Shown here piece after piece: positions 5,243-40,922 of a DNA stretch of 41,013 nucleotides. The position numbers and the translations under genes are program-made. Origin of the DNA: a virus; IMG/VR virus record IMGVR_UViG_3300035659_001354, positions 1-41,013 of that record; one strand, written 5' to 3'. Each line of letters opens with the position of its first letter. Positions within the stretch are counted from its first letter, which is position 1. The notes beneath the pieces are model-generated. The model was not told the DNA's origin and did no database searches. It saw only the letters and a program-made list of their open reading frames with translations.

Positions 5243-5280
5243 CTACCACAAACGCTTTCCACGGTAGAAGAGACTCTGTT

Positions 5281-5582: not shown

Positions 5583-5599
5583 CATAGAGGGCGACTGAC

Positions 5600-5890
5600 A
5601 TGCACAAGTTTCCCTCTTTTTCTGACATTCGCCGTAAACTGCACTATCTGCTCTATGAGCAGTTGCCGAAGCCGAGAAAAATAATCCAGAACCAAGTCGA
5701 GATCATGCTCTTTGCCGCATTCGCGTGGCCAGCTGCATATGTGCTCGTTTGGTTTTGGTTCGGAAACTTGGCACGGTACACATGGGTGCTATTTCTTGTC
5801 GAAGCCATCGTCGCGCCCATCGCGGCGGTCGACTGGGTTTGGCATCGTAAGGAAAGAGCCGAAGCTGATAGAACGAAGCAATGTGCATAG
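5600..5890 (+). CDS. Two-span membrane protein
   Basis: A 96-residue protein. The N-terminal 33 residues are basic (FSDIRRKLHYLL, KPRKIIQ). Two hydrophobic segments follow, LFAAFAWPAAYVLVWFWFG and TWVLFLVEAIVAPIAAVDWVW, then a charged tail. The tryptophan-rich membrane spans are notable. It sits between the secreted repeat peptide and the kelch gene, so the three may act at the cell surface. No motif allows a function. Confidence 0.6.
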   Translation: MHKFPSFSDIRRKLHYLLYEQLPKPRKIIQNQVEIMLFAAFAWPAAYVLVWFWFGNLARYTWVLFLVEAIVAPIAAVDWVWHRKERAEADRTKQCA

Positions 5891-5902
5891 AAGGTTGTTG
5901 TC

Positions 5903-12803: not shown

Positions 12804-13045
12804 AATACATCACAAGCATACGTCGACGATGCACTGAACTCATGAATCAAGGGTTCAAGCTGGCTCGAATTCGTATGAGCCCCCACGTGCACGCCGAATT
12901 GCTCGAGGAATTCCGCAGACAACGTGACCTATTCCCGCGGACCTTGCCCCGCGGGGCAAACGCCGTCGCCATCACAAGTTTGTGCGGTCTACCCGTACTC
13001 ATTGATTTCGGACAGGTTGAATTCGCCGTTGAGGTACAAACATGA
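12776..13045 (+). CDS. Hypothetical protein with CGLPV motif
   Basis: An 89-residue protein with a strong AAGGAGGC ribosome site at 12763-12770. Order: helix (YITSIRRRCTELMNQG), strand (KLARIRMSPHVHAELLEEF), then ITSLCGLPVLIDFGQVEFAV. The C-terminal block resembles the end of the ASCH-like protein (ICGLPVVID). It is coupled by ATGA to the cytosine methyltransferase, so it may assist it. Not recognised as a family. Confidence 0.55.
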   Translation: MSDKPMVPVEYITSIRRRCTELMNQGFKLARIRMSPHVHAELLEEFRRQRDLFPRTLPRGANAVAITSLCGLPVLIDFGQVEFAVEVQT

Positions 13046-13674
13046 CTGAGCCGTTCACACTTCTCGATCTCTGTTGTGGGATGGGCGGTTGGAGCATTGG
13101 CTTTCACCGCGCTGGCTTTGTGTGCACAGGGGTCGATGTCATTGACGTCGGATATCCGTACGATCTAGTTCTTGCCGATGTTCGAGACTGGCATCCGAAC
13201 AAACGCTATGATGTTGCAGTAGCGAGTCCGCCTTGCACTGAATATTCTCAATTAGTGCGCCTGGCAGTTAGCAGAGGACAAAGAGGACCTGCAAACCCCG
13301 CGAAGGGCTCAGAGTTAGTCAAAGCGTGCGTACGAATCATTGAGGAAGTCAAACCGAAGATCTGGATTCTGGAGAATGTTGCCGGTTCCCTGGACTACAT
13401 AACGCCAATATGCGGCTCGCCCAAAGTTGTTCATAGACCGTGGTTTCTTTGGGGTGATTTTCCAGCGTTCATGCTCACTCAATCCAATTTGCCGCGCAAG
13501 ACTGACGGCGGAATCGGTGGCCGCCGTTATCATCAGCCCCATGACACACTGAACTCGATTTTCGCGTTCAATCCATTACGTTCTTTTTACCGGGCAAAGA
13601 TTCCGCTTCCGCTTTCGGTCCCTATAGGAAAAGCATGTTATGAGAAACTCTTGGAGGGGACTATCAATGGTTAG
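13042..13674 (+). CDS. C5 cytosine DNA methyltransferase (short form)
   Basis: A 210-residue protein with motif I (FTLLDLCCGMGGWSIGFHRA, residues 6-24), the catalytic motif IV SPPCTEYS (Cys 65), and motif VI LENVAG (111-113 ENV). After this it has only a short region (GGIGGRRYHQPHDTL) instead of the long target-recognition domain and motifs IX-X of typical enzymes, which are 300 residues or more. It may be a minimal or partner-dependent enzyme, or one that recognises a very simple site. In a virus it would protect DNA from host restriction or mark its own genome. Coupled on both sides. Confidence 0.85.
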   Translation: MTEPFTLLDLCCGMGGWSIGFHRAGFVCTGVDVIDVGYPYDLVLADVRDWHPNKRYDVAVASPPCTEYSQLVRLAVSRGQRGPANPAKGSELVKACVRIIEEVKPKIWILENVAGSLDYITPICGSPKVVHRPWFLWGDFPAFMLTQSNLPRKTDGGIGGRRYHQPHDTLNSIFAFNPLRSFYRAKIPLPLSVPIGKACYEKLLEGTING

Positions 13675-14277: not shown

Positions 14278-15642
14278 ATGCCCTACAGAATTTCAGATCA
14301 GCTGTCACTACCTGACGAAGCGGTCACGTGGGTCATAAGCTACCTCGCCAAACGAGGGGCCGGCAAAACGTACTGTGCTTCCGATCAAGCTGAAGAAATG
14401 TTGAAGGCCGGAGTCCCGATCGTCGTCATTGACGGCATGGGTATCTGGTGGGGACTCAGGGTCAACTATGACGGCACAAACGCCGGCTTGCCGATCGTTG
14501 TCTTCGGCGGCGACCACGCAGACTTGCCTCTGATCCCCGAGAAAGCAGCTGAGATCGCTAGGGCAGTTGTAGAATCGAACATCTCTTGTGTACTGGACCT
14601 GAGCGGTTTCAGCAAGTATGCTGCACGCAAGATCGTGACTAGCTTTCTGAACGAGCTTTATCGCTTGAACCGTGCAGAACGTCATGTCTTCATTGAAGAG
14701 GCGGATCTCTGGGCCCCACAGCGTCCACTTGGACCTGAAGAAAACTTGTGTCTCAGTGCAGTCGACAACTTTGTGCGAAGAGGCGGCAACCACAATCTCG
14801 GGTGCACGCTCATAACGCAGCGTAGCGCAGTGTTGAACAAGGATATCCTGACGCAGTCCGACTGTCTCGTGATCTTGAGGACCTTGGCCCCGCAAGACAA
14901 GAAAGCTATTCAAGCATGGGTCGAAGAGCAAACCGACGAAGACAAAACAAAAGTGAAAAAGTGGTACGACACGCTGAAGGAGCTCGAGAACGGCCAAGCG
15001 TATGTTTGGCACCCCGAGAAGCCGGCGATCTTTGCTAAGATTCAGTTTCGAAAGAGAGAGACATTCCATGCGACCAGAGAATTCGTGCGCAGTCCACAAG
15101 CAAGCAAAATCGTTCTCATGGACGTCGACGAATTCATTCAGAGATTCAAGAGCGTCTTTGAAGTGAAACCTGAACACAAACTTGAGATTAAGACTGAGCG
15201 TAAGAGTGAGCATAAGGTTGAGCCTGAGCCCAAGGCCAAGTTTGAGATCAAGCAGCCACCGCCGCCGTTAGGGCCGCCCGCAACAGTTGTCGAAACCAGT
15301 AACACTAGCGTGACTCAAACGCTTCCGACCATCGTCATAAACCAGTTCAAGCCCACGCTCACGGTTCCAGTTGAAGTGTTGAACGAGCCCACAACACCGC
15401 TCGGCAAGGTCGTTGTTGTGTTGAAGAATGACGCGCAGAACAAGGGAAGACAGGACAAGTGGAGCATCAACCGCACAAAAATGCACGTTCGAGATCACGG
15501 ATGGGACGATGAAGGTGTCGAAGACGCGATCGCGCAGCTGATTCGCTGGGAGATCCTAGTCAAACAGCCGAGTAAATATCTTCGGTTTTACCCTGAGCGC
15601 GTGCAGATCGTAGAGAACAACGACCGACTCAAGGTCGCATAA
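14278..15642 (+). CDS. HerA/FtsK-like AAA+ translocase ATPase
   Basis: A 454-residue protein. Walker A is AKRGAGKTY (24-31), Walker B is HVFIEEAD (136-143), and a sensor-like stretch RRGGNHNLGCTLITQR follows at 167-182: the HerA/VirD4 class order. The first 265 residues form the ATPase. A Pro/Lys-rich linker with repeated E-H-K and PPPPLGPP connects to a C-terminal winged helix (NRTKMHVRDHGWDDEGVEDA). HerA proteins are hexameric DNA pumps. Here it may handle viral DNA during replication or repair and probably not packaging, because a separate terminase is present. Coupled tightly to the preceding gene. Confidence 0.85.
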   Translation: MPYRISDQLSLPDEAVTWVISYLAKRGAGKTYCASDQAEEMLKAGVPIVVIDGMGIWWGLRVNYDGTNAGLPIVVFGGDHADLPLIPEKAAEIARAVVESNISCVLDLSGFSKYAARKIVTSFLNELYRLNRAERHVFIEEADLWAPQRPLGPEENLCLSAVDNFVRRGGNHNLGCTLITQRSAVLNKDILTQSDCLVILRTLAPQDKKAIQAWVEEQTDEDKTKVKKWYDTLKELENGQAYVWHPEKPAIFAKIQFRKRETFHATREFVRSPQASKIVLMDVDEFIQRFKSVFEVKPEHKLEIKTERKSEHKVEPEPKAKFEIKQPPPPLGPPATVVETSNTSVTQTLPTIVINQFKPTLTVPVEVLNEPTTPLGKVVVVLKNDAQNKGRQDKWSINRTKMHVRDHGWDDEGVEDAIAQLIRWEILVKQPSKYLRFYPERVQIVENNDRLKVA

Positions 15643-19738: not shown

Positions 19739-20190
19739 TACGTTAGACCTCTCTCATAGTCAAGACTATACTCACAGGCCCACAAGTAGGCCCCGCCAAT
19801 CCGCTCAGTCAGCGGTTTCATTCCCGACACCCGTCGCAGTGACGCGATCGGGTTTGCTTCAAAAGCTGCACGCATAACAGCTTCGGCTTTCTCAAGAACC
19901 TTTATGCCGGTTATGCCGGTCTTATCCATAGCGAACACGCTGATCGGCACGTGTTCTCTGTAGCCAAGCGGATAGTGATCTGAGTCTATCAGTGCCGAAC
20001 TCGTTGCTTGTCCAATGCTGAAAATGACATCGATGGCTTTATCGATGAACACTCTGCTCAACGGGTAGTCGGGCAGATCAAAAGCCTTGATTATTGGGGC
20101 TTGCGTGATGCCATCATCTTTCGTGATCCCTGTGCCTGTGACGTAAGTATCTAGGAAAACTTTGGTTCTGTTTTGTGCACTATCAACCAT
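19738..20190 (-). CDS. Tail terminator/neck-like protein
   Basis: A 150-residue protein. It begins MVDSAQNRTKVFLDTYVTGT, then PLSRVFIDKAIDVIFSIGQA. The middle (YREHVPISVFAMDKTGITGI) and the end (GAYLWACEYSLDYERGL) show the strand pattern of the small alpha/beta proteins that cap tails. Position between two head-tail genes supports this. It overlaps the glycosyltransferase gene by 8 nt. Confidence 0.5.
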   Translation of the reverse strand: MVDSAQNRTKVFLDTYVTGTGITKDDGITQAPIIKAFDLPDYPLSRVFIDKAIDVIFSIGQATSSALIDSDHYPLGYREHVPISVFAMDKTGITGIKVLEKAEAVMRAAFEANPIASLRRVSGMKPLTERIGGAYLWACEYSLDYERGLT

Positions 20191-20731
20191 ATTTTGCGCC
20201 TCGAGTTGGAGTTTTGAGGTGACGAACCCGCAGAGGAAGAGTGTCGATCAGGTATCCGTTGCGTCGGAACTTGCCCCACATGTAGACACATTCGCATGAC
20301 TCGTGGCCCGGCTGCCAGTCATATAGTTGTTTCAGCACCAGGGTTCTGCACACGCTTGTTCCGAAGGCTAAGTGCCCTTGACAGTCTGGGGCCTCGTAGT
20401 CTAGGGCTACAGCAACTAACTTCGGGTTTGTCTGCAGCAAGTCGATCGCTGCTTGCGGATAGTTGAACGGAAGAAGAGTGTCCACGTCAAGGTTCAACGT
20501 GAACTCGGCCTCTGCTAGAGCGATGCCTCTTTTCCGCGCAATATGCAGCGGCTCGTCAACAAGAGCTTTGATGTATGTTCTCGAGTAAGGCTCGAGTCCT
20601 TCGCCGCCGTCGCTGTCTATCACGATCACCTGACCCGTTGAAAGTAAAGGCAGATGGTGATCTCTGAACGCGCGCACAATTTTCGCGTCTTCTTTGACGG
20701 GAATGACTATGCTCAGTTCAGCCCTCAGCAT
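20183..20731 (-). CDS. Family 2-like glycosyltransferase
   Basis: A 182-residue protein with the GT-A fold start ELSIVIPVKEDAKIVRAF, VIVIDSDGGEG and the metal-binding DVDT at about residues 82-85 (TLNLDVDTLLPF). It is short for the family, with no membrane span, so it may be a minimal enzyme. It lies between tail genes, one of three glycosyltransferases in the structural arm. It may glycosylate a virion protein, or modify the cell surface. The acceptor is not known. Confidence 0.8.
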   Translation of the reverse strand: MLRAELSIVIPVKEDAKIVRAFRDHHLPLLSTGQVIVIDSDGGEGLEPYSRTYIKALVDEPLHIARKRGIALAEAEFTLNLDVDTLLPFNYPQAAIDLLQTNPKLVAVALDYEAPDCQGHLAFGTSVCRTLVLKQLYDWQPGHESCECVYMWGKFRRNGYLIDTLPLRVRHLKTPTRGAKYG

Positions 20732-23072: not shown

Positions 23073-23305
23073 CCCGACGGCTAACGTCTGATAGTGAGCT
23101 CGCCCGGACGTCAGCAACGTCCCTTTTGCGTCGGAAAACACCGCTCCAGCGGCGCCCTCAACGACGGACAACGTCTCTTGTGTCAGCTGCAGGAGATCTC
23201 GCTCCGTCCTCTTTGCGTCAGGACCTTGACTCGAGCGGAGGATTTATCGACGCACTTCGTCTGATGTTGGGCTGCCAGGATCTCCGGGAGCGTCTGATTT
23301 GCGTC
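23060..23305 (-). repeat. Degenerate tandem repeat with about 87-bp period
   Basis: TTTGCGTC appears on the plus strand at 23125, 23212 and 23298, 87 and 86 nt apart. On the minus strand the three units align well: GACGCAAA, a variable stretch, then A/GAGACG, 5 nt, CGTCG. Unit A is the methyltransferase C-terminal coding sequence. Units B and C lie downstream of its stop. Each encodes an arginine-rich peptide similar to that C-terminus. Only two-thirds of positions agree by eye, so this is a decayed duplication or a conserved DNA/RNA element. Confidence 0.55.
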
Positions 23306-23936
23306 GGAAATGAAAGAGAATCTGATGTATCCCATCCGGCCGATCGTACGAGTCGACGAGCTCATAGTTTAGCGTTCGGAACATGCCGACATAGTCGTGG
23401 TGGAAGTTGTGCCAGTCTAGTTTTTCGTCTTCCGCTGGGTTGAAGTATTCCATGAGCACTAGGTCGTCGCTCAGTTTCGTGAGGTTTGTGCATGCGTCCG
23501 ACCACGGGTGCTTTTCTGAGTCTTTGGAGACTTCAGGTATGTGCATGAGAACGGTTCTTGTCAGAGCTATCTCGAACGGTTTCTCTGGCAGAGGCAGATC
23601 TGAAGCTCGTACGTTGACCGCTTTAAGGACGAACTCAGCTGCGGGCTCTGTGATATCGCATTTGGCAAGTTGAATGTTCTTGTACTCATGTCTTTCAATG
23701 CGTTCTTGTGCGCGGTTCAGCATACTGTCAGACCAGTCGACAGCGACAACTCGAGGGATCTGTTGAAAACTTGAGAAGAGCTCACCGCTTCCGCAGCCGA
23801 CGTCGATGAGGCTTTGTGGGTGAGTCTTGATGAGATAGGCAGCTACGATTCGTCTTCCGAAGACGTCGGGCACGTAGTAGACTGAGCCGCGGCGTTCCCA
23901 GTAATCGTGGAGTCGGTGTTCAACGTCGCTCATCAT
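23244..23936 (-). CDS. Class I SAM-dependent methyltransferase
   Basis: A 230-residue protein with motif I LIDVGCGSGELF (43-54), the acidic end of strand 2 VVAVDWSDSMLNRAQ, and LAKCDITEP for motif III. After the core, PFEIALTRTVLMHIPEVSKD fits motif IV and the following helix. It is a typical soluble class I enzyme. The C-terminal 20 residues are a charged tail (RRKSDAPGDPGSPTSDEVRR) that lies in the 87-bp repeat region. It is in a block with two glycosyltransferases, so sugar or protein methylation is a possible role. Confidence 0.8.
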   Translation of the reverse strand: MMSDVEHRLHDYWERRGSVYYVPDVFGRRIVAAYLIKTHPQSLIDVGCGSGELFSSFQQIPRVVAVDWSDSMLNRAQERIERHEYKNIQLAKCDITEPAAEFVLKAVNVRASDLPLPEKPFEIALTRTVLMHIPEVSKDSEKHPWSDACTNLTKLSDDLVLMEYFNPAEDEKLDWHNFHHDYVGMFRTLNYELVDSYDRPDGIHQILFHFRRKSDAPGDPGSPTSDEVRR

Positions 23937-24142
23937 TTGGTTTCGAACCTCACGACTTCATGGTCGCATTTGCAGATTTTGCAGTAGTGTTTCTCACGGA
24001 CCTCTTTGACAGAAAGAAATACGTTGTCAATGTAGAGTAGAGCTCCTTTGCCGTCGCCGTTTGGATGGCCGCACTTGGGGCATGCTGGAAAGCAAGCGTC
24101 GTACAATTCACCGCAGTTTTCGCATGGCGGTCGAACGCACAT
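23933..24142 (-). CDS. Double zinc-ribbon small protein
   Basis: A 69-residue protein: MCVRPPCENCGELYDACFPA, then CPKCGHPN, and near the end KHYCKICKCDHEVV. There are four CxxC-like pairs, so two metal sites are likely. It starts where the glycosyltransferase ends and overlaps the methyltransferase start. It may be a regulatory or adaptor subunit in this cassette, but there is no direct evidence. Confidence 0.6.
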   Translation of the reverse strand: MCVRPPCENCGELYDACFPACPKCGHPNGDGKGALLYIDNVFLSVKEVREKHYCKICKCDHEVVRFETK

Positions 24143-25125
24143 CAGTCCATGCCCTCGACGATCTTCATGAAGCGGTCTGCAACGGGCTTCTCGTCGTGCA
24201 CGGTTACAGCGTACTCGTAGCCTTTGCTTCCGAACTTGCGTACGAGACTCGGGTTCTCAACGAGCAGTTTGCTTTTGCTTCGCAAGTCGTCGTCGTCAGT
24301 CCACTGGATAAACGGGTTCTTGACGCTTGGATATTCTTTGTCCATGATCTCAATCACGTCAGGGTCCAGTCGACAGAACACAGCTGCCTTGAACATGCTG
24401 GCTTCGATTGCTGCGAGCCCGTATGCTCCGATCACGTGTTGATCGTAGTAGATGTTTGTTCGAGCGAGGATTCGCATGCACTGGTCCCATGTGAAGTTTT
24501 GCACGACTTGGTATTCCACGAGCGGATTGTTCAAGATCAATTCGGTGATGATGCGATAGAACAGGGCTGAGCCTTTTCGTTCCTGACTGGTTGGTGCGTG
24601 TGAAACCACGATTTTTCTGATGTCTCCGTCAAAGATCTTCAGGGCCCGGTGATCTGGGGCACACATGCCGTAAACGCGTTTGAGTTCTCCGATCGGCCGT
24701 GCAACTGGCATCCATACGCCTGTTGGAACTATGCGTAGCAAGTCGGGGGTGCTCAAGAGCGTTTCGTATCCGCCGGTGCCGAACATTTCGTCGGCTTGCT
24801 TCACAATATCCTTGCCGTAGGTGCGGACGTCGCTGCCATGGAAGTAGAGCAGTATCTTTTTGCCTTTCAGCTTCTCTTTGTCTAGGTGTAAGCCGCTGAA
24901 GAATGGTTTCACAGCTGTGTGGAAAACTATGACGTCTGCAGTGTAGACCATTTCGCGGCAGCTTTCTTCTCGGTAGTAACGCATCTCTGCGATCGTTGGG
25001 TAGTCTATGTAGTTGTTGTTTGCGCGCATGTTGATTGCTTGGACGTCTTTGCGCTTGTTCAGGGCATGCGCTAACGTGTAGCCGGCGCCGGCCATGTCTG
25101 CGAAACAAAGATTCAGGACCTTCAA
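24142..25125 (-). CDS. GT4/GT1-like glycosyltransferase
   Basis: A 327-residue protein. It has a Rossmann-type first domain (MKVLNLCFADMAGAGYTLAH), GKKILLYFHGSDVRTYGKDI, and a C-terminal donor-binding half with IRKIVVSHAPTSQERKGSAL and DQHVIGAYGLAAIEASMFKA, where the GxxxxEA pattern of the GT4 nucleotide pocket is visible. It lacks membrane segments, so it is cytoplasmic. In a virion gene block it may decorate capsid or tail proteins or make a host-like surface glycan. Confidence 0.8.
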   Translation of the reverse strand: MKVLNLCFADMAGAGYTLAHALNKRKDVQAINMRANNNYIDYPTIAEMRYYREESCREMVYTADVIVFHTAVKPFFSGLHLDKEKLKGKKILLYFHGSDVRTYGKDIVKQADEMFGTGGYETLLSTPDLLRIVPTGVWMPVARPIGELKRVYGMCAPDHRALKIFDGDIRKIVVSHAPTSQERKGSALFYRIITELILNNPLVEYQVVQNFTWDQCMRILARTNIYYDQHVIGAYGLAAIEASMFKAAVFCRLDPDVIEIMDKEYPSVKNPFIQWTDDDDLRSKSKLLVENPSLVRKFGSKGYEYAVTVHDEKPVADRFMKIVEGMD

Positions 25126-25565
25126 GTTTCATCGTCTCCGACGCTGTGACCCTTGAAGGGTCGCTTGCGTTTTGTCGGTTTCTCTTCTGTTTCCGTTTCC
25201 GAGGGCGGTAACGGTTCGTCGGTTTCTACAGTGATCTGTGTAGTGTCCGACACTATTCGCGGTTCAGTGACCTTTTCAGCTTCAACGGGCTGCTCAGTCC
25301 CGACGCTTGGACTCGGCTGTGTGTCGGTGATCTTCGGGGCTAACTTCTTTTCAAGGTCAAGCTGTTGTGGTTCGAGTCTTTCGAGCTTGTGGAACGTGAC
25401 GCTGCTGCCATGATAGACGATTTTGACGTTGCATTCACCGTTCTGCAAGCCGTCGAACACGTCCCAGCCCTTGCCGACGAGGATCTCCTCGAGGGCAGCC
25501 TTGATCTTCTCGTAGACAGCGTTTTCCAAGGCCCACTGGCCTATCTTAATCTGGGTGGTTTCCAT
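25122..25565 (-). CDS. Hypothetical protein with an acidic, threonine-rich tail
   Basis: A 147-residue protein. ATG 25565 is preferred over a GTG 12 nt upstream, because AGGAGGTGG lies just before it. The first 60 residues form a compact alpha/beta domain (VYEKIKAALEEILVGKGWDV). The rest is low-complexity and acidic (VGTEQPVEAEKVTEP, ETETEEKPTKRKRP), a disordered tail. It lies between two glycosyltransferase genes. Confidence 0.5.
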   Translation of the reverse strand: METTQIKIGQWALENAVYEKIKAALEEILVGKGWDVFDGLQNGECNVKIVYHGSSVTFHKLERLEPQQLDLEKKLAPKITDTQPSPSVGTEQPVEAEKVTEPRIVSDTTQITVETDEPLPPSETETEEKPTKRKRPFKGHSVGDDET

Positions 25566-26313
25566 CTTGTTGACCACCTCCTGTCAGTTTTTTAAGAGTG
25601 GAAAGGACTTCGCCCATGTCTTTCGGTTCAAGCCATCCGCGCTGCATGAGATCAACCATGTAGTTCTGATGTGGGATGAGCCGACTTTGATCTTTGAACG
25701 GTTTGAAGTGCACGATCGCAAAATGGTCGGTCCAATAGATCGGGTATTTCTCCTCGATCAACCGTTCAAACTTGTCTCTGAGATGCCAGTGTGTCCCGCG
25801 ATAGTGCATGCCTTCTTCTTTCTGAAAGACTCGCGGATGCCAGGCTTTGACCATGCGCTCCGCGTGTGTGCCCGGGTTGTACAGAGGACAGTTGGCCACG
25901 ATGCAGCCGCTTTCGTACGTTGCCTCCATGGACTCTTGAAAGTCGCCCATGACCATCTCGTCCGCGTCGATGATCAGAAACCAGTCGCCTAGAGGCACGG
26001 CGTCGATAAGAGCGGTTCGCTTGACAGCTTGATTTTGCCATGGTTTGTCGCGTCCTTCAGCGGGGTGCAGATACAGTGTTTGAGGCAGACCCTTGAAGTG
26101 TTTGATGATTTCCAGAGATCCGTCGGTGCTGAATGGTTCAGCGTCTGGGACGAATTCTTTGTATCGCTGATAGTAGAGGTCGTAAGCTCCGTCTGCAACG
26201 ATCACCTGGTCCACGACTTCGCGTACGCTCTCAAGTGTTGCTGCTAAGAAGGTTCGGTCGTTGTAGACGTTTATGAGCGCATGCAGTTTCAAGGTTTCTT
26301 CCTCGATGGACAT
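25546..26313 (-). CDS. Family 2-like glycosyltransferase
   Basis: A 255-residue protein with the GT-A pattern: HALINVYNDRTFLAATLES, VDQVIVADGAYD, then LIIDADEMVMGDF with the metal-binding DAD at about residues 116-118. The later residues WHPRVFQKEEGMHYRGTHWH and YWTDHFAIVHFKP fit the acceptor side. There are no membrane spans. It starts 21 nt inside a small cysteine gene and is followed by another glycosyltransferase. Probably modifies a virion or cell-surface component. Confidence 0.8.
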   Translation of the reverse strand: MSIEEETLKLHALINVYNDRTFLAATLESVREVVDQVIVADGAYDLYYQRYKEFVPDAEPFSTDGSLEIIKHFKGLPQTLYLHPAEGRDKPWQNQAVKRTALIDAVPLGDWFLIIDADEMVMGDFQESMEATYESGCIVANCPLYNPGTHAERMVKAWHPRVFQKEEGMHYRGTHWHLRDKFERLIEEKYPIYWTDHFAIVHFKPFKDQSRLIPHQNYMVDLMQRGWLEPKDMGEVLSTLKKLTGGGQQDGNHPD

Positions 26314-27084: not shown

Positions 27085-28113
27085 CTAGTATTCCTCGATG
27101 GTTGTGGCTGCTTGAGTTGTCACTGTTGGACCGACAACGCCCGTTTCTTCCGAACCTGTCGCTCCAAACGAAGGCTCGGGGGTGACGTATTTTGTGACGA
27201 AAACGTCATCCCAATAATGGCCTTGGCCGCCTTGGGAAGATGTGAAGAACCCTATTTTACTTTGGCTTGCTCCCTTCAGAGCGTCGGTTATTCCAGCACC
27301 GCTTTTCTTTGACTTGTCAATCCAGACGTCGTATTTTGTTCCAGCGATATCGTAGTTCCAGATGCACTCAAATTTGTACCATGTGTTCAGAACCCATAGG
27401 GTGTCTGTTGGCAGATTCAGATACGCTGCTCCGTTGTAGTATTGAAAGTGTCCGTTGTCTCTGAAGACCGTGTAGCAGTTGGCGTTGCCGAGACTGTTCG
27501 TCGGCACGTAGTTGTAGTACATCTGATTGGCAGGCCCATTTGTTGTTCTCACCCAGAACACGACGCGGCCTTTGGTTTGGCATGACGCAGGCAGCGTTTT
27601 CTTGAGCGTGTTTATGCCTATGCGAAGTCCTCTGACTGAGCAAGTCCCATTCTTGAAGGCAACCGCGCTGATCGTGTAGTCTGCGTCGACTGGTTGGTCC
27701 CATCTGAGCATATCGCCGTTCTCTGCGTCTTCCCAGAACACAAACGTGTTTGGCCCGTTGCTCAACGAGCCGGCTGCAGCGTTGCCATAGTAGACATAGA
27801 TGTCTCTGTCGACAGCTGACAGGTCTTCGCCCACTTCGACGAAAGCGTATGCGTAGCCTGCGCCAGACTCAACGATGCAGTAATCCAGAAGTGTATCGCC
27901 GTCACTCGATGCGAAACGGACATCGCTGAAATCCGCTTTAGCATGATTTTCACAGTAGACTTTGCGTGCAGTGAAGCTGCCATACGTTTCGTCTGCGCCC
28001 GCTCCTGACCCTGAGTTCAGTTTGATGAGTATCTGGTACAGCGTGCCGGCGCCAGCTGCGTGGACTATAGTTTGCTTTTTCCTATAGTCCCAACCTGTGA
28101 GCCAGTTGACCAT
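27085..28113 (-). CDS. DUF2341/LamG-like surface adhesin
   Basis: A 342-residue protein. The N-terminus LTGWDYRKKQTIVHAAGAGT, YQILIKLNSGSGAG and FADVRFASSDGDTLLDYCIV matches the DUF2341 module found in archaeal and bacterial surface proteins. The second half (FWVRTTNGPANQMYYNY, then YKFECIWNYDIAGTKYDVWI) is a concanavalin-like jelly roll. It lies between a coiled-coil gene and a fibronectin-like gene, a composition suited to a receptor-binding fibre or capsid surface protein. It has no secretion signal. Confidence 0.75.
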   Translation of the reverse strand: MVNWLTGWDYRKKQTIVHAAGAGTLYQILIKLNSGSGAGADETYGSFTARKVYCENHAKADFSDVRFASSDGDTLLDYCIVESGAGYAYAFVEVGEDLSAVDRDIYVYYGNAAAGSLSNGPNTFVFWEDAENGDMLRWDQPVDADYTISAVAFKNGTCSVRGLRIGINTLKKTLPASCQTKGRVVFWVRTTNGPANQMYYNYVPTNSLGNANCYTVFRDNGHFQYYNGAAYLNLPTDTLWVLNTWYKFECIWNYDIAGTKYDVWIDKSKKSGAGITDALKGASQSKIGFFTSSQGGQGHYWDDVFVTKYVTPEPSFGATGSEETGVVGPTVTTQAATTIEEY

Positions 28114-28931: not shown

Positions 28932-30026
28932 CTATGCGACGTGGCTTGTCCAGATACGGACGATTTCTTTGGCGTCTAGGATTTTGACGCCGAACGTGTG
29001 AGAAGCCGAGATGCGTAGTTTTCTGGCTGCGATCTGTTTGTCGGTCTCGATCAGCAAGTCTCGTTTGGGTGCGAGTGCGATTGCTCGTTTGCCGCGCATC
29101 AAGTAGCACAGGTCGACTGTGCCTGTTGCGGTGTTGGTTCTCTGTTGTGTTGGCCGGTAATCTCCGACCACGAGTTTAACGCCGAACAGCGTCTCGATGA
29201 GTCCTTGCTGTATGACCTTCGGGTCAGCGAAAGCGATCACTTGCGACGCGGTCAATTCTTCGAGTAGCGCACCGTACGCGTACGGTGTGAGGTAGACGAC
29301 GCATTCGTATGGTTTCACTGCTTTGCCCGCTGCACCCATCAGCAGTTTAAGGGCTTTCGGAATGTTGGTCGAGTAGAAGTATGCTGAGCCGGTGAGTCTT
29401 GTGACGTTGCCAGCGAAGTTGGTGTTTGACAGTGCTTCGACCAATGACATGATTTTCGCGTCTTCTGACCTGACACCTGCGTCTGCGAAGGCTTTGTTGA
29501 CCTCTTCGAGGAGGTTGCTGTCAAAGCGTTCGAGCAAGTAGTAGCTCAGGTCCGCCCACGCCATAGCCTCGTAAAGTGTGGTTGTGACTGATCCGATGAA
29601 CGAGGCTTCAGCGATGGAAGCGGGGGCTGCGTTGCCGACTGCTCCGAGTTGTGTGAAGTCGAAGTCCATGACGTAAGGAATGTTTGCGACGTCACCTTGC
29701 TCAGTCTTCAGGATTTCAGTGGTCCAGACATGGTCTCTCATGTTGGCTTTCAGTTCGTTGGATCGGTAGTTAGGAATGGCGACGGTCCATTGTTCTTGCA
29801 TTCGCCATCCTTCGCTTGCGACAGTCTTGAAGGACTCGATGAGTTTCTGGCTTTTTGCTGGGGGTGTGACCCAGCCTTTGCCTGAGCCCGCTTGGGGTTT
29901 GAGTGCTTCCTGAATCAGTTTTGTTTGAGCTTCGAAGGCTTCTTTCATAGCAGCAGCGAAGCCGCTGAAATCGATAACGATGGGTTTGTCTTCTGCTTCG
30001 TGTCCTTTTGGTTCTGCTTTGCTCAA
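28932..30026 (-). CDS. Major capsid protein, HK97 fold
   Basis: A 364-residue protein. TTG 30026 is preferred, since AGGTGAT lies about 4 nt upstream; an in-frame GTG at 30035 is the alternative. The first 60 residues are helical (FAAAMKEAFEAQTKLIQEAL), a possible delta domain. Then follow WTVAIPNYRSNE and the central domain KPYECVVYLTPYAYGALLEE, and an HK97-type C-terminal block MRGKRAIALAPKRDLLIETD, ISASHTFGVKILDAKEIVRI. Position after the protease-scaffold protein, as in the canonical order, makes the assignment strong. Confidence 0.85.
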   Translation of the reverse strand: MSKAEPKGHEAEDKPIVIDFSGFAAAMKEAFEAQTKLIQEALKPQAGSGKGWVTPPAKSQKLIESFKTVASEGWRMQEQWTVAIPNYRSNELKANMRDHVWTTEILKTEQGDVANIPYVMDFDFTQLGAVGNAAPASIAEASFIGSVTTTLYEAMAWADLSYYLLERFDSNLLEEVNKAFADAGVRSEDAKIMSLVEALSNTNFAGNVTRLTGSAYFYSTNIPKALKLLMGAAGKAVKPYECVVYLTPYAYGALLEELTASQVIAFADPKVIQQGLIETLFGVKLVVGDYRPTQQRTNTATGTVDLCYLMRGKRAIALAPKRDLLIETDKQIAARKLRISASHTFGVKILDAKEIVRIWTSHVA

Positions 30027-30136
30027 TGCTATCACCTATTTTAGCCGTTTTTTCGTCCTCAGTGGACTGACGGCAGCAATCCTGTCTCTGAAGAGGTCCG
30101 GAGTGGACTTTCGAGGGCAGTTAGGCTGTGTCTGCC

Positions 30137-32433: not shown

Positions 32434-33987
32434 TCATTCAATGTAGATGTAGCCGCCGTAAATCGTGGTCAAAGGATTGGTCGCCCACGCGGGTTGGATG
32501 CCCTTGATTTCTATGTAGTCGCCCACGGCCACGGTGATGCTTAGCCCGGTGTTGCTGAAGACTCTTTCACTGGCTGAAACTGAGAGCGTGGCAATCAAAG
32601 TATCAGTCGTGTTGTTTTTGCGAATGTAGAGACTCCATGCTTCAGCTGTGCCCGCCGTGCCTGAGTAAACGTAGATTTCAGCGATTTTGATCGTGCCCGC
32701 CTTGCGAATGTAGATCTTGCTCGTAGCCGCCACAGTAACGGGTGCCTTTGGCAACATCCCGAAATAGACGGTTGCACTGTCCGCCGGGCTTGAAGTCAGG
32801 GCTTGAACCATCAACGTGTACCCTAGGCCGCCGCCAGCAAGAACTTGCCAGGTTTGGTCGCCGCGCAGAAACTTCGTGGCGTCTGCTCCCGAGCCGCCCA
32901 GATTGACTGTTGGAACCTTCTGCGCTGCATCTAGCGGTGCATAACCCGAAACCGCACCTTTGTTAGCCTTATCTTCAAAGCCGGAAGCTGAAACTCCGTG
33001 AACGGAGACCACAGCTGAAATGTGGGTGTCTATTTCAGCGTGAGTATTCGTGCCTTTATCAGTCAAATTTGTGTGGGATTTCTCGGTCAGGCTTGCAAGT
33101 GCATCATGAGGAACAATAGTTCCAAGGGCATGGCGTGCAGTTAGATCGTGTTCGGTTACAGTGAATTTGGTGTGATGGTCGTTTTCTCCAATATCAGAAA
33201 GCTCGCTATGTGCTTTTGTTGAGTGACTTGCCAGAGTATGCGCTGAGTCGTGACGTTTGGAGACAGATTCCTGAGCAGCTGTTGACAGATTAGTATCAAC
33301 GGCGATGGCACTCACTGTCACGAAAGTAGATGAATGTACTTCGTTGCCATGAGATTTAGGCGCGTGATCCTGAACCTGCGTTTTAGTCACGCCCTTCAAT
33401 GAAGCGTCAACTGTTGGATCGGCTTCAGTTATGAGAAAGGCAGATGAGTGTGCTTCATTTCCATGATTTGCAGGTGCGTGCGTTTGAACCTGTGCTTTCG
33501 TTGAACCCCCCAATGTTGCAGCGTCAAGACCTAGGCCGTCATGCACTGTCTTGTTATGGTCGCTTAGTTCAGAACACGTTTTTGAGGTGTGGCTCGCCAA
33601 TGTGTGCGCTTGCGCATGGTGATCGTCGGGGCCGACGCCTGTTAGTTCTGAATGACCCTTGCTGGAATGACTGGCTAAAGTATGCGCCTGTGCATGATGA
33701 GCGTCTGGCAACCCAGCGTGATATTCAATAGCCGATTCAGTAATGAACGCTGAAGTGTGAACCTCATTGCCATGCGACTTTGCTACGTGATCCCGAACTT
33801 GACCCTCAGTGTGACCGTTCAAAGTTGCCGCATTCACGCCCATCGCGTCGTGAAGTGCCTTGTCATGGTCCGTCAAAACATCAGCGGTTTCGCCTGGTTC
33901 ATGTTCCGCATTCCACGCGACAGAACTGATCTCATGCGTAGGATCATTTGTTTTTACGCCTTGAGTGCTGTGCTTTATTCCGCCCAT
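32434..33987 (-). CDS. Histidine-rich tail fibre with receptor-binding tip
   Basis: A 517-residue protein. Residues about 60-330 carry repeats such as DAHHAQAHTLASHSSKGHSE and DDHHAQAHTLASHTSKTCSE, NDHHTKFTV, HDSAHTLASHSTKAHSELSD, rich in H-x(n)-H. In phage fibres such histidine-rich repeats coordinate metal along a trimeric shaft. Then KVPTVNLGGSGADATKFLRG and DQTWQ, the frequent fibre linker, lead to a jelly-roll-like tip (SKIYIRKAGTIKIAEIYVYS). GAGGAG precedes the ATG. It is probably the main receptor-binding fibre. The homology call is by motif. Confidence 0.8.
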   Translation of the reverse strand: MGGIKHSTQGVKTNDPTHEISSVAWNAEHEPGETADVLTDHDKALHDAMGVNAATLNGHTEGQVRDHVAKSHGNEVHTSAFITESAIEYHAGLPDAHHAQAHTLASHSSKGHSELTGVGPDDHHAQAHTLASHTSKTCSELSDHNKTVHDGLGLDAATLGGSTKAQVQTHAPANHGNEAHSSAFLITEADPTVDASLKGVTKTQVQDHAPKSHGNEVHSSTFVTVSAIAVDTNLSTAAQESVSKRHDSAHTLASHSTKAHSELSDIGENDHHTKFTVTEHDLTARHALGTIVPHDALASLTEKSHTNLTDKGTNTHAEIDTHISAVVSVHGVSASGFEDKANKGAVSGYAPLDAAQKVPTVNLGGSGADATKFLRGDQTWQVLAGGGLGYTLMVQALTSSPADSATVYFGMLPKAPVTVAATSKIYIRKAGTIKIAEIYVYSGTAGTAEAWSLYIRKNNTTDTLIATLSVSASERVFSNTGLSITVAVGDYIEIKGIQPAWATNPLTTIYGGYIYIE

Positions 33988-34332: not shown

Positions 34333-34449
34333 TCAACTTCTGAACGCGTCGGGGTCGATGTACAGCACCGCTCCCAGACTTTTCTTGTCAGCGCAACGCT
34401 TCACGAACTCGTCGACAAGCTCTTTGCTTCTCGAATGTTTTGTGTTCAT
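34333..34449 (-). CDS. Hypothetical 38-residue protein
   Basis: AGGGTGAT precedes the ATG by a few nucleotides. The product MNTKHSRSKELVDEFVKRCA continues DKKSLGAVLYIDPDAFRS. It is short, basic at the start and has one cysteine. It ends 5 nt before the coiled-coil gene. A C-terminal strand (GAVLYIDPD) suggests a small fold. Not recognised. Confidence 0.5.
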   Translation of the reverse strand: MNTKHSRSKELVDEFVKRCADKKSLGAVLYIDPDAFRS

Positions 34450-34731: not shown

Positions 34732-35565
34732 TCAGCCACGGACCTCGCAAAACTCGCAAGGGGTCCCTGTGACGTTCCCGGCCCGGAGTGAAGCGTACGC
34801 ATTGCCTCTGAAGACGCGACGCAGACTTGTTTTGTCTGCATTGCCTAGAGTCCAGTTGCCCGGGCTCAGAATGTGACAGCACGGCAAGGTTTCACCGTTC
34901 CAGAGCACAGCCATGTACATGCTCATGCTCGTGCAGACTGACCATGTTGACGGTTTCTTTTGAGCGGTCTTCATGTCTTCGCTGATGTAGGAGATGATCT
35001 TCACGCCGTCCGTGTAACCGCGCATTTTGACTGCAATCATGTTCAGGTCGTTTTGAGTGAATTCTTCAGCCACGATGTTGAGTCGCATTCTCGGGTATTC
35101 GCCCTTTCGCATCGCATACAGTCGCCTTGCCTTCAGTAAGACTCGGCCCATGCCGGGTTGCTTGTGCACGCTGATTGCGATAGAGTCAAAGGCTTTCAGC
35201 AGAACCTTGTTCATGTGCTTGTTCAGGCACGTGCCGTTTGTTGCGATCTGCATTTCCCTGAAGCCCATCGCGTGCATTGCTAGGACGAATTCTTCAAACT
35301 TGGGGTGGAGCATGCTTTCGCCGGCGTAGCTTGGTGCCACGACCATCTCTGACGCTTTATGGTGCGTCTTGATTTCGTCGAGGATCTTGTAGAAGAGCTC
35401 ACTTGTCATGCAGCCTTTCGGTCTGGCCGGATACAAGCTCGGACTCTGAGACCAACACTTCGCGCACTTCAAGTTGCACGCGTTTGTCAGTTCGATCGCC
35501 AGACACCGCAGACTCGGCGTTCGAAAGGTCACTGGGCCGGTTTCTCGTTGTTGCATCGGCTGCAT
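34732..35565 (-). CDS. Radical SAM/SPASM enzyme
   Basis: A 277-residue protein (the longer form starts at 35574). The radical SAM motif CNLKCAKC (Cys 30, 34, 37 from this start) binds a 4Fe-4S cluster, preceded by LAIELTNA and followed by a TIM-barrel pattern (MQIATNGTCLNKHMNKVLLK, IISYISEDM). The C-terminal part carries cysteines SVCTSMSMYMAV, LPCCHI, PCEFCEVRG, as in SPASM auxiliary-cluster domains. AAGGATGG supports ATG 35565. SPASM enzymes often mature peptides by forming cross-links. It lies inside the virion gene block, which is unusual. The substrate is unknown. Confidence 0.8.
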   Translation of the reverse strand: MQPMQQRETGPVTFRTPSLRCLAIELTNACNLKCAKCWSQSPSLYPARPKGCMTSELFYKILDEIKTHHKASEMVVAPSYAGESMLHPKFEEFVLAMHAMGFREMQIATNGTCLNKHMNKVLLKAFDSIAISVHKQPGMGRVLLKARRLYAMRKGEYPRMRLNIVAEEFTQNDLNMIAVKMRGYTDGVKIISYISEDMKTAQKKPSTWSVCTSMSMYMAVLWNGETLPCCHILSPGNWTLGNADKTSLRRVFRGNAYASLRAGNVTGTPCEFCEVRG

Positions 35566-35714
35566 GCGTACCATCCTTTTTCTTGGTCAATGATGAAGGC
35601 TTTGCCAACGATCTTTTCGCCGCACGTGTGACAGGTTTCTTTTTGCCTTGCTAGTTTCCGCTGCGTTTTCTCTTGCTGCTTGTACGCTTTTTCAAGTTGG
35701 TCTTCTATCGGCAT
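35529..35714 (-). CDS. Zinc-ribbon small protein
   Basis: A 60-residue protein: MPIEDQLEKAYKQQEKTQRK then CHTCGEKIVGKAFI and WYACSRCNNEKPAQ. The helical N-terminus is followed by two CxxC knuckles, a zinc ribbon. It overlaps the MuF-like gene by 10 nt. GAGGCT precedes the ATG. It could be a partner of the portal or of the radical SAM protein that follows it. Confidence 0.6.
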   Translation of the reverse strand: MPIEDQLEKAYKQQEKTQRKLARQKETCHTCGEKIVGKAFIIDQEKGWYACSRCNNEKPAQ

Positions 35715-36127
35715 ATTTGTAGAGCCTCTAGGTCTTGCGTGTAGTTGAACCATGCACTCGGAGGCGACGTTAAACTCAGATAGTCGCTGATGTCGCTGAC
35801 GCGGAGAAGTGTGCATCGACAGTTAGGGTGAACCAGTGGAATGATCTGATCGCCGCTGATGATGAGGTGCCACGGAAACATGAGTCGAAGCTCTGTGCCG
35901 CTGAACACTTGGTTCTTGAGTACGTCACAGGTCCAGCATGTTACCGGGTCCTCGATGGCGAGGTAGTACCAGAAGTCGAGGCTACTGTAGAAGGTTTGGC
36001 GGTGGAAGTCGAGGGGCTTGCGCTTCTTAGCCTCGAGAAACGCCTGGACAACTGCGACGATCTGTTCGTTGGTCAGATTGTCGAGGCTATTGTAGGGCGG
36101 TAACGGTGAAAGTTCTTGTCTGCTCAA
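35705..36127 (-). CDS. MuF/SPP1 gp7-like C-terminal domain protein
   Basis: A 140-residue protein with TTG 36127 preferred (AAGGTG 6 nt upstream); an in-frame ATG at 36178 would overlap the portal gene by 92 nt. The C-terminus holds TCWTCDVLKNQVFSGTELRL and LVHPNCRCTLLRV, matching the CxxC...HPNCRC signature of minor head proteins of the Mu F class. The usual N-terminal 200 residues are missing, so it is a lone, shortened form. These proteins bind the portal and DNA in the head. It overlaps the zinc-ribbon gene. Confidence 0.7.
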   Translation of the reverse strand: MSRQELSPLPPYNSLDNLTNEQIVAVVQAFLEAKKRKPLDFHRQTFYSSLDFWYYLAIEDPVTCWTCDVLKNQVFSGTELRLMFPWHLIISGDQIIPLVHPNCRCTLLRVSDISDYLSLTSPPSAWFNYTQDLEALQICR

Positions 36128-37634
36128 CGATGGCACCTTGCAGTTTTGTCGGGAGAATGGACTCTCTGAATCGGTCAAAGAGCTCGTTGCGAAGCACGAT
36201 GAAGCACCGTTCTGTTTCAGGAGACAGCTTGTCTACGACTTTGCCTAGAGCCTCAGAGACCTTGCGTCGAGACTCTTGCCGGGCCTTGTCGACGTACACG
36301 TTTATTGATCGGTCGCCTTCGCGGATCGCTTCAGTCACGGTGATCGTCCGTGCTAGAAAGCTGCTTTTGATTGTGTCCAAACTCAGGTTGAGCGCGTGCA
36401 TTTTGCCCGGGTCCAGCAATGGCATGTCAGGTTGAGCTTGCGCCGGATCTGGTTCTTTAATCTCTGGAAGCGGTATGCCTTTTTGTCGAATCAGGTCTTG
36501 CGCTTGGTCGAACGTGACTGTGCCGTTTCCTTTCAGTGTCCCGATATCCGTCAAAGTGACAGCGTCGAGCACGGCTCTTGGAGCTCCGAACTTGTGCAGT
36601 GGAGTCGGAATTCCGACCATTGGCTTGTAGAAGCGGTCCTCGATGATGCTGCTGTCATAGCGTTGTTCGCCTTGGACCATTCGGTCGACGCTTTCCAGCA
36701 TCGTTCTAGCCGATGCTTCGCTTGCATTTCTCAGCAGCAGTATGAGTGGTGCGTGTAACCCTTCGCCTATTTGAAAGCTGATCTGGTTGATGTACTCGAG
36801 AAAGCGCACTTGCCCGCTGGGTTCCATGAATTGAAACCAGAAGTCCTCTTTTGTAACATGGCCAAAGTATAGGTCTTCGTCGACGTCTGCGCCGGTGACT
36901 GCGTTGTAGATGTCAGTCACGTCTTGCCCCGTGGCAAACACGCCTCTCGGTGCACTATAGCGGTGAATGATCTTCGGCATGTCCTTGTTAATTTGCTTGC
37001 GAGCCTCAATGAGATCCGCAATTTTGTCAAGAATGCTGCGCCCGTATGGGTGTGCAGTGTCTTCGTGAAGTATGAAGAGAACGATCTTTTCCATGTCTTC
37101 TTTTGTTTCCCACTTGGCCACTTCGCTGTTGCCGACGTCTTGCGTGTACTTCAAGGTCCTTCCGAATACGTCGCGCCAAATGTAGAAGCTCTCAGGCGGC
37201 ATAATTTTGAGACCGCCGCCGTCGAGACGTTCAACGGGACAGAAGCCTTTGCACAGTTTCGTGTACTCGATCTCTCTGTACTTCTTTTGTGCATTGATGC
37301 CGCGAGCCCACTCGTCGACTGATATTTTGTTCTTGTGGTTCGGGTCTATCTTTACGTCCTTACTGTCTTTCGGCGGCATTTCCGTGTAGGACCCGACGCC
37401 GGCGATCATGTCAGCCAGGAGATCGAGTCCGATGCCGGCTTCAGGGTCCTGAGCAAGATCGTCGTACCTATACATGTTCGGGGGGTGAGGCATCTTTCCG
37501 CCGGTCCACTGTTGCATTGCGCTTGTTTGTCCTTTGTCAGCTTCTTTTTGTTTGCCGACGCCTATGCCGTGTCTGAATTGTACGCCTTCGCCAAGGGTCA
37601 ACGGTGCACACTTGAATCCTGTTGACGAGCTCAT
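36087..37634 (-). CDS. Portal protein
   Basis: A 515-residue protein, the usual size for phage portals. Features include AGIGLDLLADMIAGVGSYTE near the start, EYTKLCKGFCPVERL, the ring domain with SFYIWRDVFGRTLKYTQDV and RSILDKIADLIEARKQINKD, and QISFQIGEGLHAPLILLLRN as the crown transition. The C-terminus is helical (LDTIKSSFLARTITVTEAIR). It follows the terminase and precedes MuF, as in most tailed viruses. ATG overlaps the previous stop (ATGA). Confidence 0.85.
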   Translation of the reverse strand: MSSSTGFKCAPLTLGEGVQFRHGIGVGKQKEADKGQTSAMQQWTGGKMPHPPNMYRYDDLAQDPEAGIGLDLLADMIAGVGSYTEMPPKDSKDVKIDPNHKNKISVDEWARGINAQKKYREIEYTKLCKGFCPVERLDGGGLKIMPPESFYIWRDVFGRTLKYTQDVGNSEVAKWETKEDMEKIVLFILHEDTAHPYGRSILDKIADLIEARKQINKDMPKIIHRYSAPRGVFATGQDVTDIYNAVTGADVDEDLYFGHVTKEDFWFQFMEPSGQVRFLEYINQISFQIGEGLHAPLILLLRNASEASARTMLESVDRMVQGEQRYDSSIIEDRFYKPMVGIPTPLHKFGAPRAVLDAVTLTDIGTLKGNGTVTFDQAQDLIRQKGIPLPEIKEPDPAQAQPDMPLLDPGKMHALNLSLDTIKSSFLARTITVTEAIREGDRSINVYVDKARQESRRKVSEALGKVVDKLSPETERCFIVLRNELFDRFRESILPTKLQGAIVEQTRTFTVTALQ

Positions 37635-39065: not shown

Positions 39066-39462
39066 ACACGGTCACGTTGAAGCTGAAATCAGTTATGACA
39101 GTGATGTTTCTGGCCACTGTCAACGTGAAGGTCACGTCAATTTGCTCCTCTCGATCAACGGTCTCGTTTGCGTAGTCCCATGTCATGTTGAGATACCTCT
39201 CAGCTTCCGCGGGAATGAAACCTGAGCAGTTGAACGTCAAAGTCACTGGTCTCGACCCTGTGTTGTAGACCTGTATGAGTGTCGAGTTTCGGCTTTCGCC
39301 CGGGTGCAGAGTGCCCCAGTCGATCATGTTAGGTGAGATGTCGATACCTACGCCTGAGAGCAAGTCAATGTTCTGAGGGCTCGGTTTATTGGCGAGGCTC
39401 AAGATCAAGACCACTAGGAAAAACACTGTGATGATGATTAGAGCGTTTCGCCCCTCGTTCAC
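39055..39462 (-). CDS. Membrane-anchored beta-sandwich protein
   Basis: A 135-residue protein starting at GTG 39462, coupled to the terminase stop (GTGA). One N-terminal membrane helix (ALIIITVFFLVVLILSLANK) leads to an extracytoplasmic beta domain (IDISPNMIDWGTLHPGESRN, NTGSRPVTLTFNCSGFI, TVARNITVITDFSFNVTVYG) with several N-x-S/T sites. The fold resembles small Ig-like or MSP-like sandwiches. It would point outside the cell. Confidence 0.6.
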   Translation of the reverse strand: MNEGRNALIIITVFFLVVLILSLANKPSPQNIDLLSGVGIDISPNMIDWGTLHPGESRNSTLIQVYNTGSRPVTLTFNCSGFIPAEAERYLNMTWDYANETVDREEQIDVTFTLTVARNITVITDFSFNVTVYGR

Positions 39463-40922
39463 CACTTGCGCACTCCTGTCATAATTTGAGGTGGCCCGGC
39501 GTGTCGCAATCGTTCAAAGGCGCCTGACGTTGCGTCGACTTGGTCGTCGTGTTCGCCTAGAGGGAAGCTCTCGGCTTCGTCGAGGAACGGATTGATCCAG
39601 ACGCCTTCGATTAGCCACACGTTGCCCGCTTCTGCAGCTGAACTGAAGGGGTTAGCCCGTAATTCCTTGTCGCCTGTTGCTCGTTGTCCGTGGAAAGTGA
39701 AGCCTGAGAGAATGTTGCGGCTGTAGTGACTGACTAGACTGATGCCTTCGCTCCCTGGCTCAATTTCCATGCAGATGCTCACGCGGTTCTTGTGCTGCAT
39801 GTAGTCGAGGACGGCTGTTTGTTTGATGGCGTCCTCAGTTTCCTTCGGTGTCTTGCGGAAGCGTCTGATGTCTTCGATGTAGTACATGCCGTCTTTGAAC
39901 GCGACTTTTGAGCCCACTGTGTAGTCTGGGTCTTTGCCTTGTTTCGGCGTGGTTGCAGCCATGTCCCAGAAGCGTACTCGAGTAGCGTCTTCAGGTGCAG
40001 CCTTGAGCATTGGGTGTGAATCGCTGATGAACCATTCACGTCGGAACTTGCTGCCGCCATGCTTCGCGCTCCAATCACCTTCAAGATACTGTCTCCGTGT
40101 GATGGGGTCTAGTTGGTTGAGGCTGCGAATGTAGCTGACTCGATCGAGGTTTGGATTGTCCTGCAGCTTGGCCGGTATGAAGATACGGCCCTCGACGTTC
40201 CTAATTGTGATTTCTTTGCTGTGACACGCCGGGCATTCGACTAAGATTTCGGCTTTGGTTACTTGTTGCTCTATGCCGCATTCCTGGCACTTCAGCCAAG
40301 GCAGAAAGCGTCGTTTGACCCAATCGTGCCCGATGTTGCCGGGGTTACTTGCGCCGCGCATGCGTAAGGGAACGTAGGCGCCTTCGAGTCGACGCAAACG
40401 TGAGAACAGATACCGGTATTGCCCTTCGAGAAACTGTGTTTTCTCGTCAAACCCGATAAACTGAAATTCGGCGGACTGGTAGCTGTACTTGTCTTGGTCG
40501 GTCTCGAGATATCCGAAGTTTAAACGTGCGGTCGACGGAAACGTCCACGCGTGGTTTACAGCGGACCAGTGAGCTTTTGTGCCTCCGAGCCATTGACTCG
40601 CCCGGTCCATGAGGGCTTCAGGCAAGGCAAGATCTCTATAGCTGCGTCGAAACAGTATTGCATTGTAGCCAGGTTCATTGACGAACTGCAAGGCAGCCAT
40701 GAGTAAAGCGTCAGATTTGCCCCCGCCAGCTGCGCCGCCGTACAGGGCTTCGGGGCACAGGAGCATCAAGAACTCAGCTTGTCTAGGACTGAGCCCTTTG
40801 CCGTCAGGTCTAGGAAGGCGGTGTGTTGCTGGAATCCACTTGTTCTCCAGAACCGTGCGCTTGAAGATTTCGCTTAGCTGCTGTTTCGAGCAGAGTATCG
40901 TATCCTCTGAGAATTGCTCCAA
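39459..40922 (-). CDS. terL: Terminase large subunit with zinc-ribbon insertion
   Basis: A 487-residue protein. Walker A is YGGAAGGGKSD (61-71), Walker B is FQFIGFDE (153-160), and the coupling motif is RGASNPG (189-195). The nuclease half has FWDMAAT (Asp 320), CMEIEPG (Glu 386) and EHDDQVD (Asp 459/460). An insertion between the ATPase and nuclease, KCQECGIEQQ to CPACHSKE (212-234), holds two CxxC pairs and is probably a zinc ribbon, which is unusual. The start is TTG 40922; no in-frame stop is near. An overlapping open frame runs in from the right edge. It packages DNA into the procapsid. Confidence 0.9.
   Translation of the reverse strand: MEQFSEDTILCSKQQLSEIFKRTVLENKWIPATHRLPRPDGKGLSPRQAEFLMLLCPEALYGGAAGGGKSDALLMAALQFVNEPGYNAILFRRSYRDLALPEALMDRASQWLGGTKAHWSAVNHAWTFPSTARLNFGYLETDQDKYSYQSAEFQFIGFDEKTQFLEGQYRYLFSRLRRLEGAYVPLRMRGASNPGNIGHDWVKRRFLPWLKCQECGIEQQVTKAEILVECPACHSKEITIRNVEGRIFIPAKLQDNPNLDRVSYIRSLNQLDPITRRQYLEGDWSAKHGGSKFRREWFISDSHPMLKAAPEDATRVRFWDMAATTPKQGKDPDYTVGSKVAFKDGMYYIEDIRRFRKTPKETEDAIKQTAVLDYMQHKNRVSICMEIEPGSEGISLVSHYSRNILSGFTFHGQRATGDKELRANPFSSAAEAGNVWLIEGVWINPFLDEAESFPLGEHDDQVDATSGAFERLRHAGPPQIMTGVRKW

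Follow-up and report, generated by a model that had tools for sequence, protein, structure and literature searches.

The radical SAM enzymes SpeY, DesII, BlsE and AbmM tailor sugars or aminocyclitols. BtrN, of butirosin biosynthesis (PDB 4M7S/4M7T), is a twitch radical SAM dehydrogenase that acts on an aminocyclitol and is encoded in an antibiotic gene cluster. The SPASM domain is defined by seven cysteines in the order C-x9-15-G-x4-C gap C-x2-C-x5-C-x3-C gap C, with two auxiliary clusters, and the twitch domain is a shortened SPASM domain with one auxiliary cluster; SkfB, CteB and SuiB each have a RiPP recognition element (RRE) at the N terminus and a precursor peptide as substrate, and the study of SkfB warns that similarity is a poor guide to function in this twitch/SPASM subfamily (PMC6231123). 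Viruses are well known to carry radical SAM genes: the Campylobacter phages CP220 and CPt10 have 11 and 12 (PMC2853527), a marine T4-like virus 12 (PMC5332604), and a huge virus described in work on viruses of methane-cycling archaea 15 (PMC9723712). A hypervariable region of pelagimyophages reportedly combines varying radical SAM cassettes with glycosyltransferases (PMC7029224), and capsid glycosylation by a virus-encoded glycosyltransferase has been proposed for an archaeal virus (PMC10848311). Here we describe a viral radical SAM gene that differs from these known genes in being a single copy between head genes, and to which they are distant matches, compared through BFVD and PHROGs only. 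We read its product, with a probability of about 0.45, as a twitch-type oxidoreductase that modifies a sugar within a glycan encoded by the virus. Given the published viruses with 11 to 15 such genes, the novelty that a sequence-only reading of this DNA had claimed for a viral enzyme of this kind was overstated; the new elements are the viral clade, its assignment to the twitch enzymes and the overlap with a zinc-ribbon gene inside a head-gene operon.

The window is the whole 41,013-base linear virus record IMGVR_UViG_3300035659_001354, from an uncultured tailed virus, probably one of archaea, and members of its lineage were found in metagenome contigs only. The minus strand from 40922 down to 16463 encodes packaging, head and fibre-like genes (Table 1). 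The terminase is nearest, among named phages, to those of the methanogen viruses psiM2 (Methanobacterium/Methanothermobacter; 42%) and psiM100, with Gordonia phages at 41%; the portal and capsid proteins gave no match among named phages. Given the psiM2 terminase, with the Gordonia phages close behind, an archaeal host is likely but not proven. The sequence-only reading had placed the enzyme between a MuF-like protein and fibre genes, with a zinc-ribbon ORF ahead and a 38-residue ORF behind. These neighbours are present and the MuF-like gene is matched by profile, but the fibre label rests on repeats, and that gene had no match in Pfam or PHROGs. Elsewhere in the window, a DUF2341 protein lies among the fibre-like genes (27085-28113, minus strand; PF10102, 9.4e-14) and is possibly a host-binding protein. 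On the plus strand, a HerA-like ATPase (14278-15642; partial match to NF040819, 1.3e-7) is 41% identical to the 'hera helicase' of a Manatee Spring Caudoviricetes and adjoins a C5 cytosine DNA methylase gene (13042-13674).

Table 1. Features of the radical SAM locus and of the late operon around it, in window positions.
Feature	Position	Strand	Evidence or remark
Terminase large subunit	39459..40922	-	Pfam and PHROGs profile matches; phrog_979, 1.2e-105
Portal protein	36087..37634	-	Profile match
MuF-like minor head protein	35705..36178	-	phrog_2841, 2.4e-4
Zinc-ribbon protein, 61 aa	35529..35714	-	ATG overlaps MuF stop, stop overlaps radical SAM GTG; conserved in L019 and L002
Radical SAM/twitch protein	34732..35532	-	266 aa from GTG 35532
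Radical SAM core motif C-x3-C-x2-C (C19, C23, C26)	35455..35478	-	Invariant in nine aligned homologs
Twitch (short SPASM) domain, C200-x12-G213-x4-C218 C219 ... C259-x2-C262	34747..34935	-	Sequence motif
38-aa ORF behind the radical SAM gene	34333..34449	-	No homolog in 80 related loci
Repetitive 'fibre' gene	32434-33987		Called fibre on repetitive sequence only
HK97-type major capsid protein	28932..30035	-	PF05065, 1.1e-6
GT2 glycosyltransferase	25546..26313	-	Near the major capsid gene; conserved in L083 and L085 (53%)
Possible GT-B glycosyltransferase	24142..25125	-	Weak: PglH-type, 0.025
SAM-dependent methyltransferase	23244..23936	-	PF13649, 5.9e-11
Possible GT2-like glycosyltransferase	20183..20731	-	Weak: TIGR04283, 0.0096

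The radical SAM gene lies in an ORF at 34732-35574 (minus strand; 280 aa from the upstream-most ATG at 35574) with several possible starts, among them the ATG at 35565 chosen earlier. We prefer the GTG at 35532, because it overlaps the stop codon of the zinc-ribbon gene (CAGTGACC) and because the ortholog on the viral contig L019 has the same length and start codon; residues are numbered from this GTG. The protein matches PF04055 (Radical_SAM) at 3.8e-7 and 30.9 bits (cut-off 29.5) and PF13186 (SPASM) at 1.7e-8 and 35.1 bits (cut-off 21.5), so the ORF is not a chance one, and the L019 ortholog likewise exceeds the curated cut-offs of both families. Together with the three core cysteines and a model whose alternating strands and helices match radical SAM structures, these matches place the protein in the radical SAM superfamily, whose hallmarks are this cysteine motif and a partial TIM barrel, as had been proposed. 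The twitch motif C-x9-15-G-x4-C ... C-x2-C is present with its four ligands, in the same spacing class as in L019, in two contigs of a second viral lineage (L097 and L102) and in bacterial homologs; C219 is an additional conserved cysteine beside C218. A full SPASM domain with two auxiliary clusters was rejected: the first part of the motif is there, the chain stops four residues past C262, and the later cysteines are absent from both this protein and its L019 ortholog. The 'SPASM-like cysteine set' of the sequence-only reading thus survives as a PF13186 match and a partial motif, but with the four ligands of a twitch domain and not seven cysteines, and a single auxiliary Fe-S cluster is predicted.

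A profile built from nine homologs and compared with solved structures gave BtrN as the best match (4.2e-22), spanning core and twitch. An AlphaFold2 model (pLDDT 77.2, pTM 0.80) searched with Foldseek also ranked BtrN first and matched DesII, BlsE, SpeY and AbmM; SpeY (PDB 7WZV), itself a twitch dehydrogenase, was the best PDB match in a single-sequence search. BtrN resembles the viral protein in size, core and four-cysteine twitch, yet the two share only ~15% identity at a TM-score of ~0.6, and the comparison with an aminocyclitol-oxidizing enzyme draws on similarity and gene context. The likeness of SpeY, DesII, BlsE and AbmM is distant and lies chiefly in the core. Peptide and protein modifiers were returned as well, namely SuiB, CteB, anSME and SkfB by Foldseek and the peptide epimerase EpeE/YydG by the profile (1.5e-11). 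EpeE/YydG, SkfB, CteB and SuiB share the radical SAM core and a twitch or SPASM domain with the viral enzyme, but neither the RRE nor the precursor peptide of SkfB, CteB and SuiB was found for it.

The best NCBIfam match, a partial one over residues 21-138, is the tungsten-cofactor oxidoreductase maturase TIGR04317 (4.8e-19), and the MoaA and viperin models match too. These matches would suit an auxiliary metabolic or accessory gene whose product takes a host cofactor or nucleotide-like metabolite as substrate and has no link to glycans or virions, and many radical SAM genes of published viruses have been read as metabolic (PMC2853527, PMC9723712). However, TIGR04317 scores 68.7 bits against a curated cut-off of 380 bits, and since the other equivalog models shown also fall far below theirs, none assigns a function. 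The tungsten-cofactor maturase, and any other named NCBIfam equivalog, was rejected on this ground, and we consider a metabolic role of this kind unlikely.

Viral relatives are few. The L019 contig, first reached through its terminase, carries the portal, MuF, zinc-ribbon and radical SAM genes in the order of the window, and its radical SAM protein is 49% identical. Scanning the viral collection with the single sequence from the window or from L019 returned no relative besides L019, and the sole addition from an alignment scan was the distant L082. Searching for the twitch motif WNGxxxPCCH as a DNA pattern uncovered the second viral lineage, three contigs (L097, L102 and L106) whose proteins are 38-40% identical to that of the window, and a third, more distant viral group; a second DNA pattern found L019 only. 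One genome scan for cellular relatives gave just two distant matches. In the second lineage the portal and terminase-like genes are on one strand and the radical SAM gene on the other, and the terminase and portal of that lineage were not among the relatives retrieved with those of the window. In a tree with bacterial homologs, the proteins of the window, L019, L097 and L102 form one clade with support of 100/99 and a long stem. The near copies in L097 and L102 give a dN/dS of 0.13, so the gene is under purifying selection in that lineage; the window and L019 copies are too diverged for this estimate. In a profile search of 50 records, mostly fragments related by terminase or portal, the gene was present only in L019 and the three second-lineage records. 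Because it is absent from most related fragments, it would seem to be accessory in these viruses and not a core gene essential for heads.

This patchy distribution would also be expected of a passenger acquired from a host and of no function to the virus, which the sequence-only reading had named as a case that would refute it. All metal-ligand cysteines are nevertheless kept at 39-49% identity; the purifying selection, the well-supported long-stemmed clade common to two viral lineages and the overlap that ties the gene into the late operon likewise speak against chance carriage, which we regard as very improbable.

The second lineage also has a large gene. In L114 (9877-14946, minus strand), and likewise in L097, L102 and L106, a 1689-aa protein directly after the portal combines an ATP-dependent DNA ligase domain (PF01068, 1.2e-10) with a metallo-beta-lactamase-fold domain (PF12706, 2.8e-18); it also shows a weak match of pyrimidine-dimer glycosylase type and, by eye, a HAD-like stretch. 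The L106 copy (1-6136, minus strand) reaches 2045 aa with two apparent inteins (LAGLIDADG_3, 6.5e-5; Intein_splicing, 6.5e-5), which the L102 copy lacks.

Start and stop overlaps indicate that translation of MuF, zinc ribbon and radical SAM protein is probably coupled. The last two genes are separated in L019 by a small membrane ORF, which begins at the zinc-ribbon stop and overlaps the radical SAM start; in L002 the same zinc ribbon stands immediately before the contig end. At 58% identity the zinc ribbon recurs in L019 and L002, and no further occurrence was found in the viral collection. Conserved residues extend over its full length and two CxxC pairs account for its four cysteines, so that it looks more like a folded zinc protein than a precursor with a variable core. 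It is absent beside the radical SAM gene of the second lineage: in L097 that gene is coupled through ATGA to a 123-aa ORF, which had no Pfam match and reads as nuclease-like, and in L102 a similar ORF ends ~140 bases upstream. A partner common to both viral lineages, the comparison that had been proposed as a check, was not found. The 38-aa ORF, suggested earlier as a modified partner, had no homolog in 80 related loci and was dropped as a substrate, L019 ending before the corresponding place. A search of the full record for RREs of the PqqD type (PF05402) found none at E-values up to 1, and the core starts at about residue 12 of 266, which leaves no room for an N-terminal RRE. With neither such an RRE nor a precursor-like peptide found, a RiPP system was rejected.

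These neighbours bear on the possibility that the enzyme modifies a virion or operon protein or peptide, such as the zinc ribbon or MuF, by epimerisation, crosslinking or oxidation. The overlapping genes, kept in L019 apart from the one extra ORF, the conservation of the zinc ribbon and the profile similarity to EpeE/YydG fit such a role; the lack of an RRE in the enzyme and of a PqqD-type RRE elsewhere in the window, the folded appearance of the zinc ribbon, the different neighbour in L097, L102 and L106 and the absence of the enzyme from most related fragments do not, and we hold a protein substrate to be rather unlikely. Its more specific form, in which radical chemistry on the co-translated zinc ribbon or MuF would mature that protein for head assembly or DNA ejection, seems to us highly unlikely. 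The sequence-only reading had raised peptide maturation in head assembly. Of that proposal a complete-looking radical SAM enzyme, its place among the virion genes of the late operon and its overlap with the zinc-ribbon gene, a pair retained in L019, stand, but peptide maturation itself is unsupported, all the more because the closest solved structures, by profile and by fold, are those of sugar or aminocyclitol enzymes. Glycan decoration, viral or of the host surface, is the more likely of the two.

The MuF genes of L002 (5502-6725) and L019 (2491-3705), both on the plus strand, each contain an intein (PF14890, 4.6e-6, below cut-off) with junctions ...HPN|C ... SN|CRC..., and their exteins are ~55% like the MuF protein of the window, which has no intein. 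On the opposite strand within the intein lies a 239-aa ORF (L002 5874-6593 and L019 2854-3573) with a match to a restriction-type nuclease family (PF18741, 1e-6, below cut-off), and the intein/nuclease block is 96% identical between the two contigs. A nuclease encoded antisense inside an intein seems unusual; a brief literature search on antisense homing genes found them in introns only.

The genomic surroundings of the enzyme and its kin suggest sugar tailoring without proving it. The GT2 and methyltransferase genes belong to the late operon of the window itself, although the radical SAM gene sits beside head genes, ~8 kb from the nearest clear glycosyltransferase gene. For the possible GT-B protein, a single-sequence fold was too poor to use and a profile comparison with the glycosyltransferases of G051, the record of L102, gave nothing. 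No sugar-nucleotide epimerase was found in the window. G051 encodes three GT4-type glycosyltransferases and one or more methyltransferases, and in the third viral group homologs stand beside a GT8 gene and further radical SAM genes. In a sample of 299 Pseudomonadota genomes, some of the best homologs sit in recognisable surface-glycan loci, judged by reading the sequence and not by a statistical test. The bacterial homologs L089, L118, L120, L121 and L122 have epimerases, sugar aminotransferases, glycosyltransferases or a NeuB-like gene around them; of four control regions drawn from these bacterial genomes, one (L123) likewise looked like a polysaccharide locus. Two phage-like contigs, L107 (5276-7937) and L096 (3182-6523), line up several radical SAM genes next to a GT8 and further ORFs of transferase type, forming a compact glycan-like cassette of viruses.

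In the sugar-tailoring account that we favour, SAM would be cleaved at the core [4Fe-4S] cluster, a hydrogen would be taken from the substrate and the leftover electron would probably be handed to the auxiliary cluster, so that the net reaction may be a dehydrogenation like that of BtrN, an epimerisation or an elimination. The substrate would most likely be a sugar, or a unit resembling one, in a glycan built or altered by the virus's own glycosyltransferases and methyltransferase, whether that glycan sits on virion proteins or at the host surface. The gene with its motifs, operon and orthologs, the viral clade and the purifying selection in one lineage are observed; the clusters, the reaction and its substrate are inferred from the domain matches above cut-off in the window and L019, from BtrN being the best match by both profile and fold, from the glycan-gene contexts and from the low dN/dS of the second lineage. 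Against it, fold and profile also return peptide enzymes, two of the three glycosyltransferase assignments in the window are weak, related viruses have the GT2 gene without the radical SAM gene, and the glycan contexts amount to few independent cases.

The locus sets apart a small clade of virus-encoded twitch radical SAM enzymes in two lineages of uncultured tailed viruses, tied by gene context to viral glycan building; its enzyme is compact and amenable to testing, and a neighbouring gene is coupled to it. If a protein is the substrate, virion maturation would include radical SAM chemistry; if a sugar is, these viruses would bring their own oxygen-sensitive sugar chemistry, altering virions or host surfaces.
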